Of a stretch of DNA of 64,000 nt, positions 49,613 through 60,325 are shown in pieces. The notes below the pieces were generated by a model, which worked only from the letters and a program-made list of their open reading frames with translations, did not search any database and was not told where the DNA came from. This DNA comes from Bdellovibrio sp. 22V (lineage in GTDB: Bacteria; Bdellovibrionota; Bdellovibrionia; Bdellovibrionales; Bdellovibrionaceae). The stretch covers positions 1,984,001 through 2,048,000 of the forward strand of contig NZ_CP125854.1 in NCBI RefSeq assembly GCF_030169785.1, in the 5' to 3' direction. Position 1 is the stretch's first letter. Each line of letters starts with the position of its first letter. Made by a program: the position numbers and the translations under genes.

Positions 49613-49640
49613 TTAAGTTTCTTTTGTGAAAACCCGATAA
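49613..49640 (+). promoter_or_regulatory. Sigma-28-like promoter of flaG operon
   Basis: TTAAGTTT, 12 bases, CCCGATAA (7 of 8 to the -10 consensus). Transcription would begin about 49647, only ~3 bases before the ATG at 49650. Confidence 0.6.
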
Positions 49641-49649
49641 GTTACTCGT

Positions 49650-50027
49650 ATGAATATCAAAGGATTTTTCTCCAACATTCTGCCGAACAACGAAGTTCGC
49701 TCTGTGGAAAGAGTGGGGAAAACCATTAAGTCCGATGAAACGCATGACAGAGATGCCAACGGTCAAGAAACTTACGGTGGAAACCAAGAACAACAGCGTG
49801 AGCCGATGACTGATGAGCAACTCGAAAAAGCGATGGAGCACTTGCGCAGTTTGCCTGCGATGAAAGAGCACAAGTGGACAGTGCATCTCGAAGAAGAAGA
49901 AGGAAATCGTTTTGTCATCGTGAAAGATAACTTGGGAAGCGTGATTCGCAGAATTCCTGAGTTGGAATTGTGGACTTTGCCTACGGATAACTCTCCGAGA
50001 GGCCAACTCCTCAAACGCTCGGCTTAA
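49650..50027 (+). CDS. flaG: FlaG-like flagellar protein
   Basis: A 125-residue protein; the last ~60 residues contain RFVIVKDNLGSVIRRIPELELW, the FlaG pattern (VVRV.D..TGEVIRQIP). FlaG influences filament length. Its position directly before fliD, and the sigma-28-like promoter, support the call. The start codon lies just after the -10, so the mRNA may be leaderless. Confidence 0.8.
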   Translation: MNIKGFFSNILPNNEVRSVERVGKTIKSDETHDRDANGQETYGGNQEQQREPMTDEQLEKAMEHLRSLPAMKEHKWTVHLEEEEGNRFVIVKDNLGSVIRRIPELELWTLPTDNSPRGQLLKRSA

Positions 50028-50198: not shown

Positions 50199-51566
50199 AT
50201 GGCAGGCATTCGTTTTACAGGCATGGCCTCTGGGCTACCACCGAATATCGTAGATCAGCTGATGGAAGCTGAGCGTATTCCTGTGAAACAAATGGAAGTG
50301 CAAAAGACGAAGCAAGAGGACAAGTTGAAGCTTGTCAACGAGCTTGAGACGAAAGTGACTGACATCACTAAAAATCTCACAGAGCTTACTTCGACAAGCG
50401 GGTTCATCGATAAGAAATTTATCAGTGGTGATCCGAATGTGGTGGAAGGACAAGTCGATCCTTCCGCAGCCGTTCCTGGAGATTATTCGATTGAAGTCGT
50501 ACAGCTGGCGCAAAAGCCCGCGGCGATTTCAAACGGATTTCCGGACAAGGATGAATCGCAAATTGGTGTTGGTTACATCAAGTTTGAGACTCCGGAAGGA
50601 ACGAAAGAAGTTTACATCAATGGAAGCAATTCCACTTTGGAAGGCGTCGTTAAACAAATCAACGCTGCCAATGTGGGATTAAAAGCGCAAGTGCTTGAAG
50701 ATAGAAAAGATGCAGAAAACCCTTTCAAGCTTTTGATTTCGGGGCTTTCTGCAGGAAAAGACAATCAGGTTACTTTCCCAAAGATTTATCTTTTGGATGG
50801 GGACCAGGATTTGTACTTCGATGAATCGCGCAAAGCACAGAACGCGAAAGTTAAAGTTGACGGGTTTGAGATCGAGCTTCCCGACAACAAGTCGACGGAT
50901 TTGATTCCGGGTGTGACGTTGGATTTTAAATCAGCGGCGCCGGGGCGGGAAATCCGCATGAGCGTGAAAGAAAATCTGGAAGTGATCAGCGGCAAGATCA
51001 AAAGTTTTGTCGATGCTTACAATGCGGCTTTGGATTTTATCCAAAAGCAAAACAAACTGACGGCAGGTGACGGGAAAAACCCCAAACTTGGTCCGTTGGG
51101 TGGTGACGGGATGTTGCGTTCCATTGAGAACAGTCTTCGTCGCATCATCCTCAATCCGCAGATGGGTGTTGAAACGCCGATCCGACGTGTTGGGGAATTG
51201 GGAATTGAGTTTAACAGAAACGGTACGTTGAACTTCAATCAAGACAAGTTCAACAAAGTTTTGAATGCAAACCCGGCGGGAGTGGCTGCTTTCTTCCGCG
51301 GCGACGGTTTCAATACAGGCTTCGTTTCTGGTTTGAAAAGAGAGATCGGGAATCTGTTAAACGGTCAGTTCGGAACGATCGCTAACAGAAAGAAAGGTCT
51401 GCAAGACAGAATCAATCAAGTGAATGGACGTATTGAAACAAAAGAACGTCAGCTTGAGAGAAAAGAGGAAAGTCTGCGCAGAAAATTTGCCGATCTGGAG
51501 TCGAAAATGTCGGACATGCAGGCACAGCAGGCAAGATTCGCAGCGATGGCTCCTAAAGCAGGATAA
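50199..51566 (+). CDS. fliD: Flagellar cap protein FliD
   Basis: A 455-residue cap protein with the FliD N-terminus (MAGIRFTGMASGLPPNIVDQLMEAERIP), a middle variable region, and a C-terminal coiled coil (~400-450). It caps the filament tip and helps flagellin fold. Followed by fliS after 36 bases. No signal peptide, consistent with type III flagellar export. Confidence 0.93.
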   Translation: MAGIRFTGMASGLPPNIVDQLMEAERIPVKQMEVQKTKQEDKLKLVNELETKVTDITKNLTELTSTSGFIDKKFISGDPNVVEGQVDPSAAVPGDYSIEVVQLAQKPAAISNGFPDKDESQIGVGYIKFETPEGTKEVYINGSNSTLEGVVKQINAANVGLKAQVLEDRKDAENPFKLLISGLSAGKDNQVTFPKIYLLDGDQDLYFDESRKAQNAKVKVDGFEIELPDNKSTDLIPGVTLDFKSAAPGREIRMSVKENLEVISGKIKSFVDAYNAALDFIQKQNKLTAGDGKNPKLGPLGGDGMLRSIENSLRRIILNPQMGVETPIRRVGELGIEFNRNGTLNFNQDKFNKVLNANPAGVAAFFRGDGFNTGFVSGLKREIGNLLNGQFGTIANRKKGLQDRINQVNGRIETKERQLERKEESLRRKFADLESKMSDMQAQQARFAAMAPKAG

Positions 51567-51602: not shown

Positions 51603-52010
51603 ATGAACAAGAATGCTTATCAGAAATATAAAACCACATCGGTGCAAAGTGCGAGCCGAGAGAAAATTCTTTTGATGCTTTATGAAGGGGCTATCAAATT
51701 CACGAAGCTTGCAATCAAAGCGGCGGAAGAAAAAAAGATCGCCGATCGCGGTATGAATATCGGGCGGGCATTCGATATTATCATGGAACTTAACAATACA
51801 CTGGATCACAAAGTCGGAGGCGATGTCGCTCTCCAGCTTGAGCAGCTCTATATGTTTATGATGGAGCAGTATACAAAAGCCAATATCTCGGGCGATCCAG
51901 AGCCTCTCAGAGCCAATCTAAAGCTTTTGCAAACGCTTTATGATGGTTGGGTTCAAGCAGTCGAAAAATTGAAAAAAGAAACAGATAACTCGGATAAAAA
52001 AGCGGGCTAA
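51603..52010 (+). CDS. fliS: Flagellin chaperone FliS
   Basis: A 135-residue helical protein with N-terminal YQKYKTTSVQSASREKILLMLYEGA, the FliS signature (Y...Y...SP..LI.MLYDGAI). It binds the C-terminus of flagellin to prevent premature polymerisation. GTGAGGGG lies before the start. Same operon as fliD. Confidence 0.93.
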   Translation: MNKNAYQKYKTTSVQSASREKILLMLYEGAIKFTKLAIKAAEEKKIADRGMNIGRAFDIIMELNNTLDHKVGGDVALQLEQLYMFMMEQYTKANISGDPEPLRANLKLLQTLYDGWVQAVEKLKKETDNSDKKAG

Positions 52011-52028: not shown

Positions 52029-52451
52029 ATGACGAGAATTATCACCTTGTTAAACGAAAAGAATCACTATCTCGAAAAGTTCTATTCACTGAATGAAGTG
52101 GAGCTGGCGAATTTTGCCCAAGGGCAATTCGACAATCTCGAACACTTCTATCAAACACGTGAAAGAATTTTGGATGTTTTGAAGTACGTGGATGCGCAAA
52201 TTGAAAAAGCGCACGCGGAAGTCTCTCAAGAAGGCGTGAATGAATCAGAGCGCCGCGAGATCAAAGAGGCTTTGGCGATTAAGGACGAATACGTCGCGCG
52301 TATTATCGAGCAAGACATTCAAGTTCTGGCCTGCATCGAAACGGCGAAAAATTCCATCATCAAGGAATTGCAGGAAGTGCGTCGCAGCCGTAAAGCGGTG
52401 GGTGGCTACAAGACCAAGACTTTCCAAAATAGATTGGATGAAGAGGTCTAG
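52029..52451 (+). CDS. FliT/FlgN-like helical protein
   Basis: A 140-residue, almost wholly helical acidic protein starting 18 bases after fliS (GGAGGGG site). Its position and helical pattern (YLEKFYSLNEVELANFAQGQ...YQTRERILDVL) suggest a FliT or FlgN-type export chaperone for fliD or hook proteins. Sequence identity to those families is weak. Confidence 0.55.
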   Translation: MTRIITLLNEKNHYLEKFYSLNEVELANFAQGQFDNLEHFYQTRERILDVLKYVDAQIEKAHAEVSQEGVNESERREIKEALAIKDEYVARIIEQDIQVLACIETAKNSIIKELQEVRRSRKAVGGYKTKTFQNRLDEEV

Positions 52452-52596: not shown

Positions 52597-53646
52597 ATGT
52601 TGGAAAATCAGTTCGTTCAAAAGTCCAGTGACGTATCTGGAATCAATTCAGGTTTTCAAGGCCTTCAAGAAGGCTCCGGAAAAATTTATCTTGATCCGCA
52701 ACAAGCTATCGCCGATTTCGATGCGGAATCTCAAAAGGAAAAAGAAGTCTCCGCTTTAGATAAGCGTATTGCTGCGTTCGTGCGTAACGCGCAAGTATTG
52801 ATGAAGCACAGAGAGTTTCATCTAGCGATGAATATTCTTCGCCAAGCTTCAAATGCGGACTCAAAAAATCCTGTCGTTCTAAACCTCCTTGCTAATTGCC
52901 TGGAAAAAATGTCCCGTCATGACGAGGCACTAATCGCACGCAAAGCCTTGGCGGCTGTCGATTATGGATTTGAGAGTCTTTACGGATACGCGACGGCTTT
53001 ATATAAACTGGGCCGCGATCAAGAGGCTTTGGATAAATACTACGAAGCTTTGGCGATTCTTACGGAAGAAAACGACAATCTTTTTGAAACCTACAAAAAC
53101 ATGGGGAACATCTTCGTACGTCAAGGCGATTATGACGGCGCAGAAGAGTACTATAATAAAGCTTATACATTGAATTCATCCTCCGACATTTTGCTTGTGA
53201 ATTTCGGCACACTCGAAGTGCAAAGAAACGACTACGAAAAGGCTTTGTACTGCTTCCGTAAAGCCGTTGAAATCAATCCTAACAATGACAAAGCGTGGGT
53301 GGGTTTGGCGATGGTTCACAACCAATTCGGCGATAGTGAATTGGCATGGGCGAACCTTGAGTCCGCGATGGATATCAATCCCCGCAATAGAACATCCGTT
53401 CACTTAGCGGCAAACTGGGGTCTTCGCGATGGCCGAGTGCAGAAAGCTATCGAAGGCTTGCAAGCTTATCTTTCGCAAGTGGAACAAGACGAGGACATGT
53501 CCCTGGTTCTTATCAATCTTTTCGCCTCTATCGGCCAGCTTGATAAGGCTCTCATCGAAATGGAAAGAGTTCTTTTGTGGAATCCTGACCACGAGGAAGT
53601 TCGCCGTTTGAAAAAGCAAATTCTCGCATCACAGAAGGCTGCATAA
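52597..53646 (+). CDS. TPR protein of the flagellar operon
   Basis: A 349-residue protein with repeated helical hairpins (~65-320): AYTLNSSSDILLVNFGTLEV, ALYCFRKAVEINPNNDKAW and others match TPR repeats. No signal peptide. It probably scaffolds protein interactions, for instance presenting flagellin to the MAF-like and GT9 genes downstream; inference. Confidence 0.85.
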   Translation: MLENQFVQKSSDVSGINSGFQGLQEGSGKIYLDPQQAIADFDAESQKEKEVSALDKRIAAFVRNAQVLMKHREFHLAMNILRQASNADSKNPVVLNLLANCLEKMSRHDEALIARKALAAVDYGFESLYGYATALYKLGRDQEALDKYYEALAILTEENDNLFETYKNMGNIFVRQGDYDGAEEYYNKAYTLNSSSDILLVNFGTLEVQRNDYEKALYCFRKAVEINPNNDKAWVGLAMVHNQFGDSELAWANLESAMDINPRNRTSVHLAANWGLRDGRVQKAIEGLQAYLSQVEQDEDMSLVLINLFASIGQLDKALIEMERVLLWNPDHEEVRRLKKQILASQKAA

Positions 53647-53649
53647 TTT

Positions 53650-54261
53650 ATGTCTATGATCACTTTTTCTGAAAACCACGAGTCGACTTTGATTTCTTAC
53701 GAAGCTGGGGAGCCTTTGGCTTCGTTGCGGGATCCTCGCGCAGAGGGTCTGAAATGGGTTTATTCTTTAGGTTCCATTCCCACGCAACACGTTGTGATCG
53801 TGGGTTTGGGTTCCGGTTTTCATGTCGCGGCTCTTGCCGACATTGACCCCTCCATCCGTATTACAGTGGTCGAATCGCGGGAGTCATTAATTCCTGTTTT
53901 CCGTTCGCAATTTCCCGAGCTTTCTGAGCGTGTTGAAATCGCAATTGTTCAAGACGCCCAAGATATATTCAAAGCGGATTTCTTTCAGGAAATTTTGAAT
54001 CAAAGATCTTATGTTCTTTCATTCCGTGAATGCTGGGGCCAGCAAGTGTCCTTTTTCTCGGAAGTCTATGGCCATCTTACGGGCCGGTCTGTCGATTCCG
54101 TGAAGTATCACTTTGAAGAGTTCGGTATCAATATTAAGGCTTTGTACTTTCAGCAAAATAAACTTCTTTCTATCAAAGATGTTATTCCTGTGGTGGAAGC
54201 GTCTGTGATGCCCGAGGATAAGAAACAGGTTTTCCGTATTCTCGGTGAATTGGTGAAATAG
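53650..54261 (+). CDS. MAF-like protein (motility accessory factor N-terminal type)
   Basis: A 203-residue protein with a Rossmann-like stretch VVIVGLGSGFHVAALADIDPS and TVVESRESLIPVF, similar to the N-terminal domain of MAF flagellin glycosyltransferases (GLG.GYH...) and to spermidine-synthase-like folds. The glycosyltransferase domain of full MAF proteins is absent; the two GT9 genes downstream could supply it. It starts 3 bases after the TPR gene. Confidence 0.55.
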   Translation: MSMITFSENHESTLISYEAGEPLASLRDPRAEGLKWVYSLGSIPTQHVVIVGLGSGFHVAALADIDPSIRITVVESRESLIPVFRSQFPELSERVEIAIVQDAQDIFKADFFQEILNQRSYVLSFRECWGQQVSFFSEVYGHLTGRSVDSVKYHFEEFGINIKALYFQQNKLLSIKDVIPVVEASVMPEDKKQVFRILGELVK

Positions 54262-54262
54262 A

Positions 54263-55831
54263 ATGAAAATTTTGGTTCTATCTCTTTTGCGACTGGGAGA
54301 TATTATTCAGCAGGCGCCACTTTTTAAGGGCTTGCGGGAAAAGTATCCGCACGCGGAAATCCATCTTCTATTGAACAAGCAGTTTTCCAGCGTGGAAAAA
54401 ATCTTAGACGGCGTTGTCGATAAATATATTTATTTTGATCGGGATGCTCTGCAAAAGGGTCTGGGCGAAGCGAACTACAATATTCTTTGGTCTTACACTG
54501 AAGTAGAGCGTCTGATTCAGACGTTGAATAAAGAAAATTACAATGCGGCATACAACTTCACCCATAATAAACTAAGCGCTTATCTTTTGGGAGCGTTGCA
54601 GATTCCGCAAAAGAACGGTCTTTATCAAGAGGAAGGACGCTTCAAAGGACTTACCAATCCTTGGCTGCGTTACTTTAACGACCGCTTCTCTGGAACTCAG
54701 AAATCTTTATTTCATTATGTGGAGCTTCTCGGAAACGCGTTTGCGCTTCCAACGAAGGCTACGACGGCACCTCATGTAAAATCCAAAAGCAAACTCGTTC
54801 TTTTGCAGTGTCTTACAAGTGACAGCAAAAAGAACTGGGGTCTTGAGAAGTTTGCAGAACTCAAACGCACGATCGAGATTTCTTTGGTCGATTACGAGGT
54901 CTGCGTGTTGGGAGCTTCTTTTGAAAGAGAAACTCTCGCGGCCGTTTTTTCTGAAAGAGATTTGTTGATTTGTGATCTTCCAGAAGCTCGCAAACATTTG
55001 CAGAATGCGGCCTTGCTGGTGACGGGGGATACAAGTATTAAACATATTGCGGCGCAAGTGGGAACTCCGATTGTTGAAATCGCGATTGGCAGCAGTGACT
55101 CTACAAAAACCGCCGCGTACTCAGCAAAGGCGTTGATACTTAATAGCGACGTCGCTTGTGCTCCGTGTTCTCACTCTCAAGCGTGTCCGCAGGCGAGCCA
55201 TCTTTGTGCGGAAGACGTTTCCGTTGAAAAAGTTTTCGGCGCCGTATGGGATCAGTTGAGCGGCGAAAAGATCGCGCAAAAGAATCACATCCGCGTTTTG
55301 GAGCGTGCGGTGTGGAGTCTTTACCTGCACAACGAATCGGATCCCTCTTATCGCGAAGCTTTACAAAATATTTTTGAGCAGTTGTCACAGAAAGAAATCG
55401 CATCGTGCCTTTCGGCATGGAATGAGCACGGGACGCTATTGCTGAATTGGTTTAATCGGGCGAAGGCGGCTTTGCCGTCGCGTGAGGAATTGGCGGGTAA
55501 GAAGAACTTTCAGTCTTCTGATATCGCGGATTTAATTCTATGCGCTCAAGACATTCTTAAAACAAAAAGAGACGAAGCAGGATATTTCCAAAACTTCGTG
55601 GAATCTTTATTAACTCGCTTCAGTCATCCGGTACAAATTTACGATCGGGTTTCTGCGGCTCTTACGGAAGCGGAAGCGCTTTTGAATATTCGCAGCAGCT
55701 TCACGCAATACTTGCAAACATCCTCCACGGAAGGAGCTTACTATGCAAAAGGAATTGGACAATTACCTATCAGTGGCTTTGAAGAGACTGGAAAAAGCGT
55801 ACAACGAAATCTTGAAAACGCAGAGTTATAA
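54263..55831 (+). CDS. Glycosyltransferase family 9 (heptosyltransferase-like)
   Basis: A 522-residue GT9 protein: N-terminal MKILVLSLLRLGDIIQQAPLF and central LVTGDTSIKHIAAQVGTPIVEI (the sugar-nucleotide-binding region). A Cys cluster CAPCSHSQACPQASHLC follows, as in many GT9 enzymes. A helical C-terminal extension of ~150 residues exceeds heptosyltransferases (~350). Position in the flagellar operon suggests glycosylation of a flagellar protein rather than lipopolysaccharide. Confidence 0.85.
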   Translation: MKILVLSLLRLGDIIQQAPLFKGLREKYPHAEIHLLLNKQFSSVEKILDGVVDKYIYFDRDALQKGLGEANYNILWSYTEVERLIQTLNKENYNAAYNFTHNKLSAYLLGALQIPQKNGLYQEEGRFKGLTNPWLRYFNDRFSGTQKSLFHYVELLGNAFALPTKATTAPHVKSKSKLVLLQCLTSDSKKNWGLEKFAELKRTIEISLVDYEVCVLGASFERETLAAVFSERDLLICDLPEARKHLQNAALLVTGDTSIKHIAAQVGTPIVEIAIGSSDSTKTAAYSAKALILNSDVACAPCSHSQACPQASHLCAEDVSVEKVFGAVWDQLSGEKIAQKNHIRVLERAVWSLYLHNESDPSYREALQNIFEQLSQKEIASCLSAWNEHGTLLLNWFNRAKAALPSREELAGKKNFQSSDIADLILCAQDILKTKRDEAGYFQNFVESLLTRFSHPVQIYDRVSAALTEAEALLNIRSSFTQYLQTSSTEGAYYAKGIGQLPISGFEETGKSVQRNLENAEL

Positions 55832-55916
55832 CAAAGAAGCCGAAAGAATTCAGCTCCTCAAAGAACTCGTGAAGGAACAAGTAAAAAATGAAAATACTCG
55901 TACTGCAGCTCGCTAG
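55743..55916 (+). CDS. Small helical protein overlapping two GT9 genes (57 codons)
   Basis: The ATG at 55743 follows GGAAGGAGCTTACT, a strong ribosome site, and encodes a 57-residue, heptad-like helix (MQKELDNYLSVALKRLEKAY...). It ends at TAG 55914-55916. It shares 89 bases with the first GT9 (stop 55831) and 29 bases with the second (start 55888), in a third frame. Being charged and helical, it looks like a real protein rather than a random frame. Possibly a complex partner of the GT9 pair. Confidence 0.55.
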   Translation: MQKELDNYLSVALKRLEKAYNEILKTQSYNKEAERIQLLKELVKEQVKNENTRTAAR

Positions 55917-57339
55917 ACTGGGCGATATTTACATGTCTTGGCCGGCGTTGCGAGCGCTTCGTCGCGCGCACCCGCAAGCGGAAATTCATCTTCTGACACG
56001 CCCTCGTTTTGAAGGCGCCGTCGAGGGGTTGACGGCGGTGGACCGCCATTGGACTTTGCCGGCGGGGGAAATTCTTTCTCCTATGGTAAAAGATGAGTGC
56101 GACATCGAAACGTCGTTGGAAAGACTGGATCATTTTGTTGACGGTCTTAAAGCTGAATCTTTTGATTGGATAATTAATTTTACTTTCTCTCCGGCTTCCA
56201 GTTATCTGGCGCATGCTTTGACCCAACCGCAGACGCAAATCACCGGCTATACTCGCTTTAAAGACGGAAGTCTTTGTTTGGCCGACGAAGTCAGCTCATA
56301 TTTTTATGCGCAAGTGGGAATCGACAAACCGAATCGCGTGCATGTCGCTGACGTTTTGGCGTCTATGCTGAATTTGGAATATATCGAAGCGGATTGGTCG
56401 GCGCCGGATTTGCCAGAGTGTACGTTGCCTTTGCCTGAACGCTACATGGTCCTTCATGTGGGCGCGAGTGAGCAGCACAAAGCTTTGAGTTCCGCAACGT
56501 GGAGCAAGCTTCTTAATTATTTTGCGAAAAGAAATAATTCTTTGCCTGTGGTTCTAATTGGAGCTCCCAATGAAAGAACGCTCGCTACGGAAATTCAAAA
56601 CTCTGTTTCGCAGATTCCATTTGTAAATCTTGTGGGTCAAACCAGAATCGCGGATCTTTTTTCGATTTTGAAAAAGGCCGAAGTCTTTGTTGGCTGTGAC
56701 AGTGCGCCAATACATATAGCTTCTTTGACGGATACGCCGACACTCAATATCAGCGTGGGTCAGGTGAATTTCTGGGAAACAGGTCCGAAAGCCACTTTGG
56801 CATTCATTTATCGCGCGGAAAACGAAGCAGCGTTGTCTCCGGAAAGAGTCGGCGAGGTTTTGGCGTCTTTGCTAGAAGGCCAAGTTGCTGAAGAACTTAT
56901 TGTACGGACGGGTGGATTGGAAAGTTACGCGAAGGACGAGTCTCCCGAGCAACGTTTCCAATGGGAGCTTGTGAAAGCTCTTTATTTAGGCGGCGCATAT
57001 CCAATGGCGGAAAGAATCGAAATTCTGCAAGGAGCTGCGAAGCTGCATGAAATTAATACCTTCGCGATGGAGCAAATCGCTTTGATTCCTGAGAAGGGCT
57101 TGCAAATGGCAGGGCCTTTATTGGATCGCGCGGAGGAAGTTATCGAAAGTATTAGCCAGTGGGTGCCCGAATTGAGTCCTCTTATTAGCTGGTATCAGGC
57201 GGAGAAGATCCGCATTGGTCCCGGTTCTCTCGAGGAAATTTGTTCAGCAGCTTTGAATGTTCACGAACGCTTAGGGCGCCATCTTCGTGTCTACATTCCT
57301 CAAGAAACTCAGGAAGAGGTGGGCGATGGAACGCTTTAA
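55888..57339 (+). CDS. Glycosyltransferase family 9, second copy
   Basis: A 483-residue GT9 enzyme with MKILVLQLARLGDIYMSWPAL at the N-terminus and VFVGCDSAPIHIASLTDTP. It is homologous to the first GT9 in the N-terminal part (both LxxLGDI and A/AEIHLL), suggesting an old tandem duplication with divergence. The C-terminal ~130 residues are helical. It overlaps the next gene by 14 bases. Confidence 0.85.
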   Translation: MKILVLQLARLGDIYMSWPALRALRRAHPQAEIHLLTRPRFEGAVEGLTAVDRHWTLPAGEILSPMVKDECDIETSLERLDHFVDGLKAESFDWIINFTFSPASSYLAHALTQPQTQITGYTRFKDGSLCLADEVSSYFYAQVGIDKPNRVHVADVLASMLNLEYIEADWSAPDLPECTLPLPERYMVLHVGASEQHKALSSATWSKLLNYFAKRNNSLPVVLIGAPNERTLATEIQNSVSQIPFVNLVGQTRIADLFSILKKAEVFVGCDSAPIHIASLTDTPTLNISVGQVNFWETGPKATLAFIYRAENEAALSPERVGEVLASLLEGQVAEELIVRTGGLESYAKDESPEQRFQWELVKALYLGGAYPMAERIEILQGAAKLHEINTFAMEQIALIPEKGLQMAGPLLDRAEEVIESISQWVPELSPLISWYQAEKIRIGPGSLEEICSAALNVHERLGRHLRVYIPQETQEEVGDGTL

Positions 57340-58009
57340 AGTAACGGGAGAAGAGCTCAGAAATTTCTATCAGGAGAATATCTCTTTAGCGCGCGTCTTT
57401 AGCGATATTGAACAAGATCTTCGTTCAACGAATCAAGTGGTGTGTCGTTACATCATCAATGGTTTGGAAATCAATGAAAGTGAAGAAGAGCGCTTCTCGA
57501 CGGTGAAACTTGATCAGATCGAAACTCTGGAATATTTGACTGAAAATGGCCGGGAACTCACGGGCATTGTTCTGCGCGGCTGGATCGATGCATTGCCCGA
57601 GCTTATTCAGAATACAGAAAAGCTTGCGAAAAGAATGCGTTCGCAAGGATTAAGCGGTCTTTTCAAATCAATTCACGATCTGGTGCAAAACTGCGAGTTT
57701 CTTATCGACAGCACTTTGATGATAAAGACGACTATGGGCGATCAGTTCCTGGTGTCTAGTCCAGTCGATTGGTTTAAGGCTGAAGAAGAGAGCAAGAAAA
57801 CCGTGACCGAGGCGTTGCGCGCCTTAGAAAATAAGGATTTTGTTCTTTTAGCCGACGTCCTAGAGTATGATTTGAACAATGTCCTGCAAATGTGGCTCGA
57901 CCACTTGCGGGTGTTGGAGAAGACGCTAAATGGGGACGACTCAGGGCCTATTATCAATTCCGAACAAACTGGATCCAATTCTATGGGTCGGAAACGTCTC
58001 GCCAATTAG
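57326..58009 (+). CDS. Helical protein of unknown function in the flagellar operon
   Basis: A 227-residue, strongly helical acidic protein. I use ATG 57326 after GGAAGAGG; it overlaps the GT9 stop by 14 bases. No domain is recognised. It is cotranscribed with the GT9 genes and overlaps the kinase gene by 80 bases, so its level is tied to both. Possibly a partner of the glycosyltransferases or the kinase. Confidence 0.6.
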   Translation: MERFKVTGEELRNFYQENISLARVFSDIEQDLRSTNQVVCRYIINGLEINESEEERFSTVKLDQIETLEYLTENGRELTGIVLRGWIDALPELIQNTEKLAKRMRSQGLSGLFKSIHDLVQNCEFLIDSTLMIKTTMGDQFLVSSPVDWFKAEEESKKTVTEALRALENKDFVLLADVLEYDLNNVLQMWLDHLRVLEKTLNGDDSGPIINSEQTGSNSMGRKRLAN

Positions 58010-59975
58010 ATTGCCTCATTTCTTCCCTTTTCAGAAAAGGGAAGTGGAGATTGTTTTTCGGGCCTCTTGTGCGGAGGCCCTTTCTCTTTTGCAGAATCAG
58101 AAATTTTCCTCGATCTTGGTCCAGGAAAGCGATGGAGCCGAGGGTCTGGAGTTCTTAGTTAAAGCCCGTCAGCTGCAGCCGATGGCGCCTCGTCTTTTTA
58201 TTGCCGAAAATCTGACTGAACAAGAAGTGCGGGAAGGAATCAATAAGGCGCAAGTCTTTCGTTTCATGCGCTGGCCTCTGAGCGAAAGAGAAATCTGGGA
58301 CCAACTTGAAAGTGCTTTGCAAAAACATTCGATGCTGCTTTCGCGCTCTTTGCTTCTGAAAGAGTCTTCCCACCAAAACAAGCAACTGGAAGCTTTGACA
58401 CATTCTCTGGAAGGAATGGTCGAAGAAAGAACGCAATACATTGAAATGTCTCACCACGAAGAAAGTGAAAAGCTGAATCGTGAACGTCAACTCATTCGTT
58501 TTATCAAGGATCTCGCGACGCAAACTTCGTTTGAAGAGATTCTTGGAATCTTACGTAAAGAACTTCGTAAGTTTCACAAGATGGGGGACCCGGTCCTTGC
58601 CTATCGCTTGGGTGGCTCGAAAACTTTCTTTATCAGCTTTCAATTGGGACACTTTACCCAGTCAGAATCTCTTAGCCATTTTGAATTTCCAAGGACGCCA
58701 CAGGTTCCTTCTGCGGAGTTGATTCGTTACTTCGCCAATCACTTCGGCCGTCCGTTTATTAAAGCCTATGTCGTTCCTTTGGAACTGCGTTTAACCAGTC
58801 ACTTCGTGGGCGGCGAGGCGGAAGCGATTCTGTGTATTGAAAACTCGTTGTCTGATAAAGAAATGGGTCCCTTTGTGGATTTCATGAGTGATCGCATGCG
58901 GCCCTTGAGCATGGCGCTGGATCGCGTGCTTTTGGAAAATCAATTGTCGTCGTTTTCTTACCGCTGGGAAAAAACTTTCGATGGCATGCGCGATCCTATC
59001 GCGATTGTCGATGTGGATTACAATGTCGTGCGCGCGAATAGAAAGTTTAGCGATAAATTTTTGCACCATCATTGCTTCGAGAGTTTCGCGCATCGGAAAG
59101 CAGCCTGTGAAGGTTGTCCTGTGCCTCAAGCTCTTAAAGAAGGAAGACCTGAAACGGGACAGATTCAGGTGGACGGACGTATCTATCAAGTGCACAGCTA
59201 TCCGGTTTTATTGGAGCATGGCACACGTCCCACGAACGTTGTGAATCAATATGTGGATATCACGCAGTCGCGCGAACTTTATCTGCAAATGTTGCAAAGT
59301 GAAAAGATGGGCGCGATCGGTATGCTGGCGGGAAACATCGCGCATGAACTGAATAATCCCCTGACGGGACTTCGCTCTTTGAGCCAGGTGTTGTTGCAGG
59401 AAGCACCTAAAGACGGGCATCTTTATTCCGATCTTTTGGAGATCGAAAAAGCGACGGCGCGTTCGCAGCGAATTATTAAAAACCTCTTGGATTTTTCCAA
59501 AGGTGAAGATCAACCCTCGGAACACATCAGTGCCGATGAAATTATCGAGCGCACGCTCCCGATGTTGAAGTCAGCGCTGCGCACGCATCGCTTGGAAGCG
59601 GATTTGCAGACCTTAGATAAAAATGTTTTTGTGGAGCCGCATTTATTGCAGCAAGTGGTTTTCAATCTTATTAACAATGCTTGCCAAGCAATGAAGGAAG
59701 CGGGACGTCTGCGTGTCACCACTCGTCATGAAGGCGCCAAAGTTTTCATCGAGATTGAAGACACCGGGCCGGGGATTCCGCTTGAAATTCAGAAGCGTAT
59801 TTTTGAACCGTTCTTCACGACAAAAAAAGAAGGACACGGGACCGGTCTTGGGTTAAGTATGTCTAAGTCTATCATTGAAAAATTCGGCGGTACGATTGAT
59901 TTCCATAACGTGGAACCTCACGGGACGTGTTTCACAATTGTGCTTCCGCAGGCACCCACGGAGTCGAAGAAGTGA
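57930..59975 (+). CDS. NtrB-like histidine kinase with pseudo-receiver N-terminus
   Basis: A 681-residue soluble kinase. Residues ~15-130 look like a receiver fold that lacks the phospho-acceptor Asp (ILVQESDG replaces the LLD strand). A coiled coil (~145-185), a GAF-like region (~195-335) and a PAS with Cys382, Cys393 and Cys396 (~345-450) follow. HisKA has His472 in [11 protein letters not shown], and HATPase (~570-675) has [16 protein letters not shown] and GTGLGL. No transmembrane helix. It ends GTGA over the receiver start. Confidence 0.88.
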
Positions 59976-60325
59976 AGATTCTGATCGTCGATGATGAAGC
60001 CTTAGTTCGCCGCTCTTTGAGCCGTGCTTTGAAAAGCAAGGGTCATGAAGTGATGGAGGCGGAAAACGGGACTGATGGGTTGCAGGCGTGGAAAACTTGG
60101 CAGCCGCATTTGGTTTTTTTAGATGTGCTGATGCCGGGAATGACGGGACCTGAGGTTTTGAAAGAAATCGGCAGCGGTAAAACGGCGAAAGTGGTTTTGA
60201 TGTCCGCGTTTTCAGGTGAGCATAATATGGAAACGGCCCAACAGATGGGCGCCGACGTATTTGTGCCGAAACCCTTCGAAGATATTTTTGCCGTCGTGAA
60301 GATGGCAGAGGAATTGTTAGTATGA
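59972..60325 (+). CDS. Single-domain response regulator
   Basis: A 117-residue receiver with the Asp pair in ILIVDDE, phospho-acceptor in LVFLDVLMPG and Lys in VPKPFE. No output domain, as in CheY or Spo0F. The GTG start overlaps the kinase stop (GTGA), so it is the likely target of that kinase; an ATG would lie 45 bases earlier. It may act on the flagellar motor or in a relay. Confidence 0.85.
   Translation: MKILIVDDEALVRRSLSRALKSKGHEVMEAENGTDGLQAWKTWQPHLVFLDVLMPGMTGPEVLKEIGSGKTAKVVLMSAFSGEHNMETAQQMGADVFVPKPFEDIFAVVKMAEELLV

Follow-up and report, generated by a model that had tools for sequence, protein, structure and literature searches.

The window, a stretch of 64 kb from the 3.6-Mb single-contig genome of Bdellovibrio sp. 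22V, carries on its + strand a putative flagellin-modifying gene set behind the genes for the flagellar cap and its chaperones. The filament cap gene fliD (50199..51566; PF07195 6e-53, PF02465 1e-18) is followed by fliS for the flagellin export chaperone (51603..52010; TIGR00208 over its cut-off, PF02561) and by a gene for a FliT/FlgN-like chaperone (52029..52451), for which PF05400 and PF05130, each with 1.6e-4, stay below the curated cut-off. After a gap of 145 bp the set begins with a tetratricopeptide repeat (TPR) protein (52597..53646; TPR models 2e-24), a proposed flagellin-docking subunit at a conserved position. It continues with a protein of 203 amino acids resembling the N-terminal domain of Maf (53650..54261; MAF-like in the following), the GT9 family enzyme GT9a with a helical C-terminal extension (54263..55831; PF01075 1.2e-16), the GT9 enzyme GT9b, whose C-terminal extension is unlike that of GT9a (55888..57339; PF01075 7e-15), and a conserved helical or mixed protein (57326..58009), which is kept with GT9 phylum-wide. 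For the latter no convincing Pfam family was found among 13 members. An earlier sequence-only reading had placed these five genes at the same positions and had described the fliD-fliS line as running into them without break. This does not hold between fliT and the TPR gene, but it does from the TPR gene through a downstream histidine kinase gene, where neighbouring genes overlap or are 1-3 bp apart. Missed in that reading was a conserved open reading frame (ORF) of 57 amino acids (55743..55916), which overlaps the ends of GT9a and GT9b, is retained order-wide and has profile matches in most loci; its product is likely a small helical partner. The gene set beside the cap and chaperone genes of this Bdellovibrio-like predator is ancient and phylum-wide. 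In B. bacteriovorus HD100, fliD corresponds to Bd0611 and fliS to Bd0612 (PMC9140294).

Conservation of the cluster, suggested earlier as a check, was examined with 88 distinct loci of which both ends could be seen; they are a non-random sample because they were gathered by matches to MAF, GT9b or FliS. The order fliT-TPR-MAF-GT9a-(57-aa ORF)-GT9b was found in 65 of them, and fliD-fliS-fliT-TPR-MAF-GT9a-sORF-GT9b-hel (sORF, 57-aa ORF; hel, helical protein) is kept across the order. Since this order is held in dozens of species, the association is far beyond chance. The MAF-like gene was detected by pairwise search in 46 of 60 relatives, including 24/24 genomes of the genus, and profile searches of fliS neighbourhoods added five further relatives; FliS is present in 59/60. 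A search for GT9b in 84,980 species genomes resulted in 64 loci, all but two with Bdellovibrionota-type names, and the two exceptions bear broad or evidently wrong taxon labels. Reduced forms occur at the same place in other families of the phylum: fliD-fliS-fliT-TPR-GT9-hel, fliD-fliS-fliT-MAF-GT9a-GT9b-hel without TPR, and fliD-fliS-fliT-GT9-hel. Thus, the constant core consists of the flagellin chaperones, one GT9 and, in most cases, the helical protein, to which TPR, MAF-like and GT9a are variably added. A fused TPR-GT9 or MAF-GT9 relative was not seen in the deep search, which covered Bdellovibrionota only. In a plasmid collection, where GT9 genes beside flagellar genes were sought, only GT9s of ~20-33% identity, mostly annotated as ordinary, were found; their neighbourhoods were not systematically examined.

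As already recognised in the sequence-only reading, the MAF-like protein lacks a transferase domain. Neither in this protein nor elsewhere in the flagellar locus was the MptE-like or sialyltransferase-like domain PF01973 detected. A true Maf was not found in the genome, and the sole PF01973 match is 1.1 Mb distant, ~4 kb from a NeuB gene. Within the MAF-like family, 15 of 30 members match PF20157 (Maf_flag10_N; best 3.5e-6, ahead of methyltransferase models). A structural search, as proposed earlier, was performed with an AlphaFold2 model (pLDDT 91); Magnetospirillum Maf (5MU5) was found first, with its N-terminal part (Z 11.1, 3.3 A over 140 residues), followed by methyltransferases with Z 9.8 and below. 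By the profile matches of its family and by its model, the protein thus resembles the Maf N-terminal domain, though that fold is common. The protein could instead be a methyltransferase modifying the glycan or flagellin, which would be compatible with the interpretation of the GT9 enzymes given below. Its family shows a GxGxG motif (G52 and G56 invariant, G54 nearly so) and in most members an acidic residue after strand 2, and 8/30 members match Methyltransf_25. Maf_flag10_N, however, matches more members and more strongly, 5MU5 ranks before the methyltransferase folds, and the N domain of Maf itself, according to published work a degenerate Rossmann-like fold without known function, also shows weak similarity to methyltransferases (PMC11339370). 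We therefore consider a methyltransferase unlikely, albeit worth keeping in view.

Both GT9 enzymes are clear members of their family (PF01075: GT9a 61 bits, GT9b 55 bits; cut-off 22). The model of GT9a matches the GT9 enzyme 3TOV (Z 26.7), WaaC (24.8), WaaF (24.1) and TibC (17.4); its catalytic domain begins at residue 1, with no N-terminal beta-barrel. For WaaC, mutagenesis showed that D13, K192 and D261 are needed for activity (PMC5713226). The equivalents are D13/K190/D256 in GT9a and D13/K198/D271 in GT9b, and the full triad occurs in 38/38 flagellar GT9s sampled from the order. The arginine R10 of an RxGD motif occurs in the same 38/38 enzymes vs 0/22 other GT9s. In a tree of 76 GT9s, a branch with a support of 99 divides the flagellar enzymes from the non-flagellar ones, which comprise three annotated references and the remaining GT9s of the same genomes, presumably of the lipopolysaccharide type; the far relative L192_far2 is weakly placed. 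GT9a forms a group of its own (99), in which further classes of the phylum are represented, hence the duplication is old.

The best NCBIfam models for the flagellar GT9s are lipopolysaccharide heptosyltransferases I-III, and the fold and catalytic triad are shared with WaaC and WaaF. Accordingly, they might be ordinary core heptosyltransferases of lipopolysaccharide which adjoin flagellar genes by chance. The scores are far under the equivalog cut-offs, however (63.8 vs 134.6, 61.5 vs 185.3 and 58.4 vs 170.2 bits), and four further GT9 genes are present in the genome. In contrast to WaaC and WaaF, the flagellar enzymes are on the other side of the tree, with the RxGD arginine, C-terminal extensions and a flagellar context retained phylum-wide with reshuffled partners. 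This makes an ordinary lipopolysaccharide role very improbable. Two further ideas concerning these enzymes were rejected. A built-in FliS-like domain in the C-terminal extensions, as proposed for Maf, was not supported by hhalign against FliS, FliT and the helical protein (<=1.5% probability). The CxPC-C-C segment of GT9a was considered as an iron finger, but its CX2C-X5-C-X6-C pattern is also found in 17/19 other GT9s here. The segment is carried by almost all other GT9a and is lost in those of L038, L065 and L070 from the same genus.

MAF-like and GT9a are lost together: 69 loci have both and 17 have neither. On the FliD tree MAF-like and intact GT9a agree in 6/6 independent comparisons (sign test p 0.03), a count resting on two hand codings, L164 as lacking GT9a (gene degraded) and L186 as having it (tree place). 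The 57-aa ORF, where present, is always followed by GT9b (60/60). The MAF-like protein would therefore pair specifically with GT9a, and GT9b can stand without it. The earlier suggestion that GT9 substitutes for the absent Maf transferase domain may thus apply to GT9a, but not to GT9b.

In five loci the glycosyltransferase (GT) slot is occupied by proteins without a Pfam GT9 match or with altered catalytic residues: L163 (5617-6981), L166 (10785-12137), L169 (4595-5641), L164 (6269-7705) and L168 (4134-5612; by residues only). Several of these degenerate or unrecognised GT9-like proteins are devoid of catalytic residues and look like retained pseudo-enzymes, and some keep the helical neighbour. 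Hence, it was considered whether the GT9-fold proteins in general are flagellin-binding assembly or chaperone factors, with transferase activity minor or lost. The complete triad in all sampled order-level GT9a and GT9b argues against this, as does the absence of MAF-like wherever GT9a is decayed, which is expected if activity mattered. We regard such a chaperone role as quite unlikely.

With some confidence, although well short of certainty, we interpret the gene set as a multi-gene cytoplasmic module for O-glycosylation of flagellin, similar to FlmG and Maf, but split and based on GT9. We infer flagellin as the acceptor, as well as the order of the steps, the sugar and the pairing of the partners. 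The TPR protein would dock nascent flagellin like the TPR half of Caulobacter FlmG, in which the TPR half binds flagellin and the GT-B half transfers the sugar (PMC7591256). One sugar may be transferred by GT9b together with the 57-aa and helical partners, another transferred or extended by GT9a, assisted by the MAF-N-like protein; FliS and FliT would then carry flagellin to export. That a GT9-fold enzyme can glycosylate a protein is known from TibC (PMC4358343).

The GT9 enzymes could also act on another flagellar acceptor, namely the FliD cap, a protein of the hook or a glycolipid in the membranous sheath that surrounds the Bdellovibrio flagellum. fliD is adjacent throughout, and the sheath lipopolysaccharide of B. 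bacteriovorus is reported to be unlike that of the outer membrane (PMC7175336). The reported difference, however, concerns fatty acids and not core sugars. Moreover, the genes adjoin those of cytoplasmic flagellin chaperones, the pairing of TPR and MAF recalls flagellin-modifying systems, and the flagellar GT9s are split from the lipopolysaccharide type in the tree. Another acceptor is thus unlikely.

The proposed glycosylation module shares features with several known systems. Like FlmG of Caulobacter crescentus, it combines TPR with GT-B in flagellin biology, and several flagellins are present in both cases. There, both parts belong to one polypeptide, whereas here they are encoded by separate genes, with two GTs of family GT9 and a MAF-N-like partner. 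Maf (5MU5) likewise has an N-terminal Rossmann-like domain and a flagellar locus, but its central MptE domain PF01973 is absent here and the candidate transferase is a GT9 on a separate polypeptide. The bacterial autotransporter heptosyltransferases (BAHT) TibC and AAH show a GT9-type fold and act on proteins, as proposed here; an N-terminal beta-barrel and an autotransporter are lacking in our case, and their iron finger CX2C-X15-C-X11-C differs from the cysteine pattern of GT9a, which is common to ordinary GT9s here. In the flag-2 systems of Enterobacterales, GT9 genes are located within a flagellar locus and predicted to act on flagellin, but there they are strain-specific cargo, scattered among GTs of many families (70 strains, five types; PMC6993521). 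In our case, GT9 is a fixed and conserved component throughout the phylum, with TPR and MAF partners.

FlmG uses pseudaminic acid. A strong NeuB match was obtained for only 5/24 genus genomes, in contrast to the MAF-like gene (24/24), so a nonulosonic acid is unlikely as sugar. ADP-heptose synthase was found over its cut-off in 57/60 genomes; this supports availability only, because ordinary lipopolysaccharide needs that enzyme, too. As donor an ADP-heptose-type sugar therefore appears more likely than a nonulosonic acid. The strain's own NeuB was considered for a nonulosonic-acid donor and rejected; it lies in a locus distant from the flagellar genes, with the lone PF01973 match ~4 kb away, and is absent as a strong match from most of the genus. 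NeuB and the PF01973 protein belong to a strain-variable locus outside the window (G000:C1:3156615-3161067), possibly making a surface nonulosonic acid. Taken to the whole phylum, a flagellin heptosylation by GT9 enzymes free of nonulosonic acids, with a stand-alone Maf N domain that partners a different transferase and would thereby disclose the role of this domain, is conceivable, but we put it forward tentatively and with more doubt than belief.

Several observations weigh against the glycosylation module. The whole GT part is gone in the flagellated L158 (G025), where the TPR gene is directly followed by the histidine kinase gene, while fliC, fliD, fliS and fliT are kept. L158 is the one locus read from genus g3, in which GT9b is absent (10 genomes sampled). 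Decayed GT9-like genes sit in some other flagellated lineages. Hence, the role is dispensable or replaceable, and flagellar genes can be present without the module. No clear difference in the Ser/Thr content of flagellin was found between lineages with and without GTs; the central region contains 155 (both GT9s), 137 (b-only) and 166 (none) Ser/Thr per thousand. The flagellin columns S141, T239 and T135 differ between these lineage groups, with too few independent lineages. The C-terminal extensions of the GT9s match no neighbouring protein, and for the MAF-like protein of the window itself a Pfam Maf match was not obtained directly; its Rossmann-type fold is a common one, for which methyltransferases score almost as well. 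Finally, the open papers searched yielded no evidence of a glycan, subscription papers being outside this search.

Further genes frame the module. Upstream of fliD a flaG-like gene is located (49650..50027, + strand; PF03646 4e-4, below cut-off), and just upstream of it a sigma-28-like site, TAAGTTT-N13-CCGATAA (49614-49640), was found by pattern match, with 0 matches in 100 shuffles. Downstream, the histidine kinase gene (57930..59975, + strand; PF02518, PF00512; ORF start uncertain) and a response regulator gene (together 57930-60325) trail the module order-wide, even where the GTs are lost, for instance in L158. This pair is possibly a flagellar regulator.

The arrangement had been called not clearly described in the sequence-only reading. 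This stands for the fixed, phylum-wide split form: in the same open papers we found neither work on these genes or on glycans of Bdellovibrio flagellin nor a description of flagellin glycosylation in predatory Bdellovibrionota. The general idea of GT9 acting on flagellin is not new, because it was predicted for Enterobacterales flag-2 (PMC6993521). Within the reach of the searches, the novel part is thus the split arrangement, fixed throughout the phylum and including MAF-N as a stand-alone partner. If the interpretation is true, GT9, so far tied to lipopolysaccharide and autotransporters, gains flagellin as a new protein acceptor. A MAF-N-like protein that stands by itself and disappears with one GT9 could help to learn what the Maf N-terminal domain does, and lineages with the module lost or the GT9s decayed are ready-made comparisons. 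In general, the conserved module would offer a genetic handle on flagellin glycosylation in predatory Bdellovibrionota.

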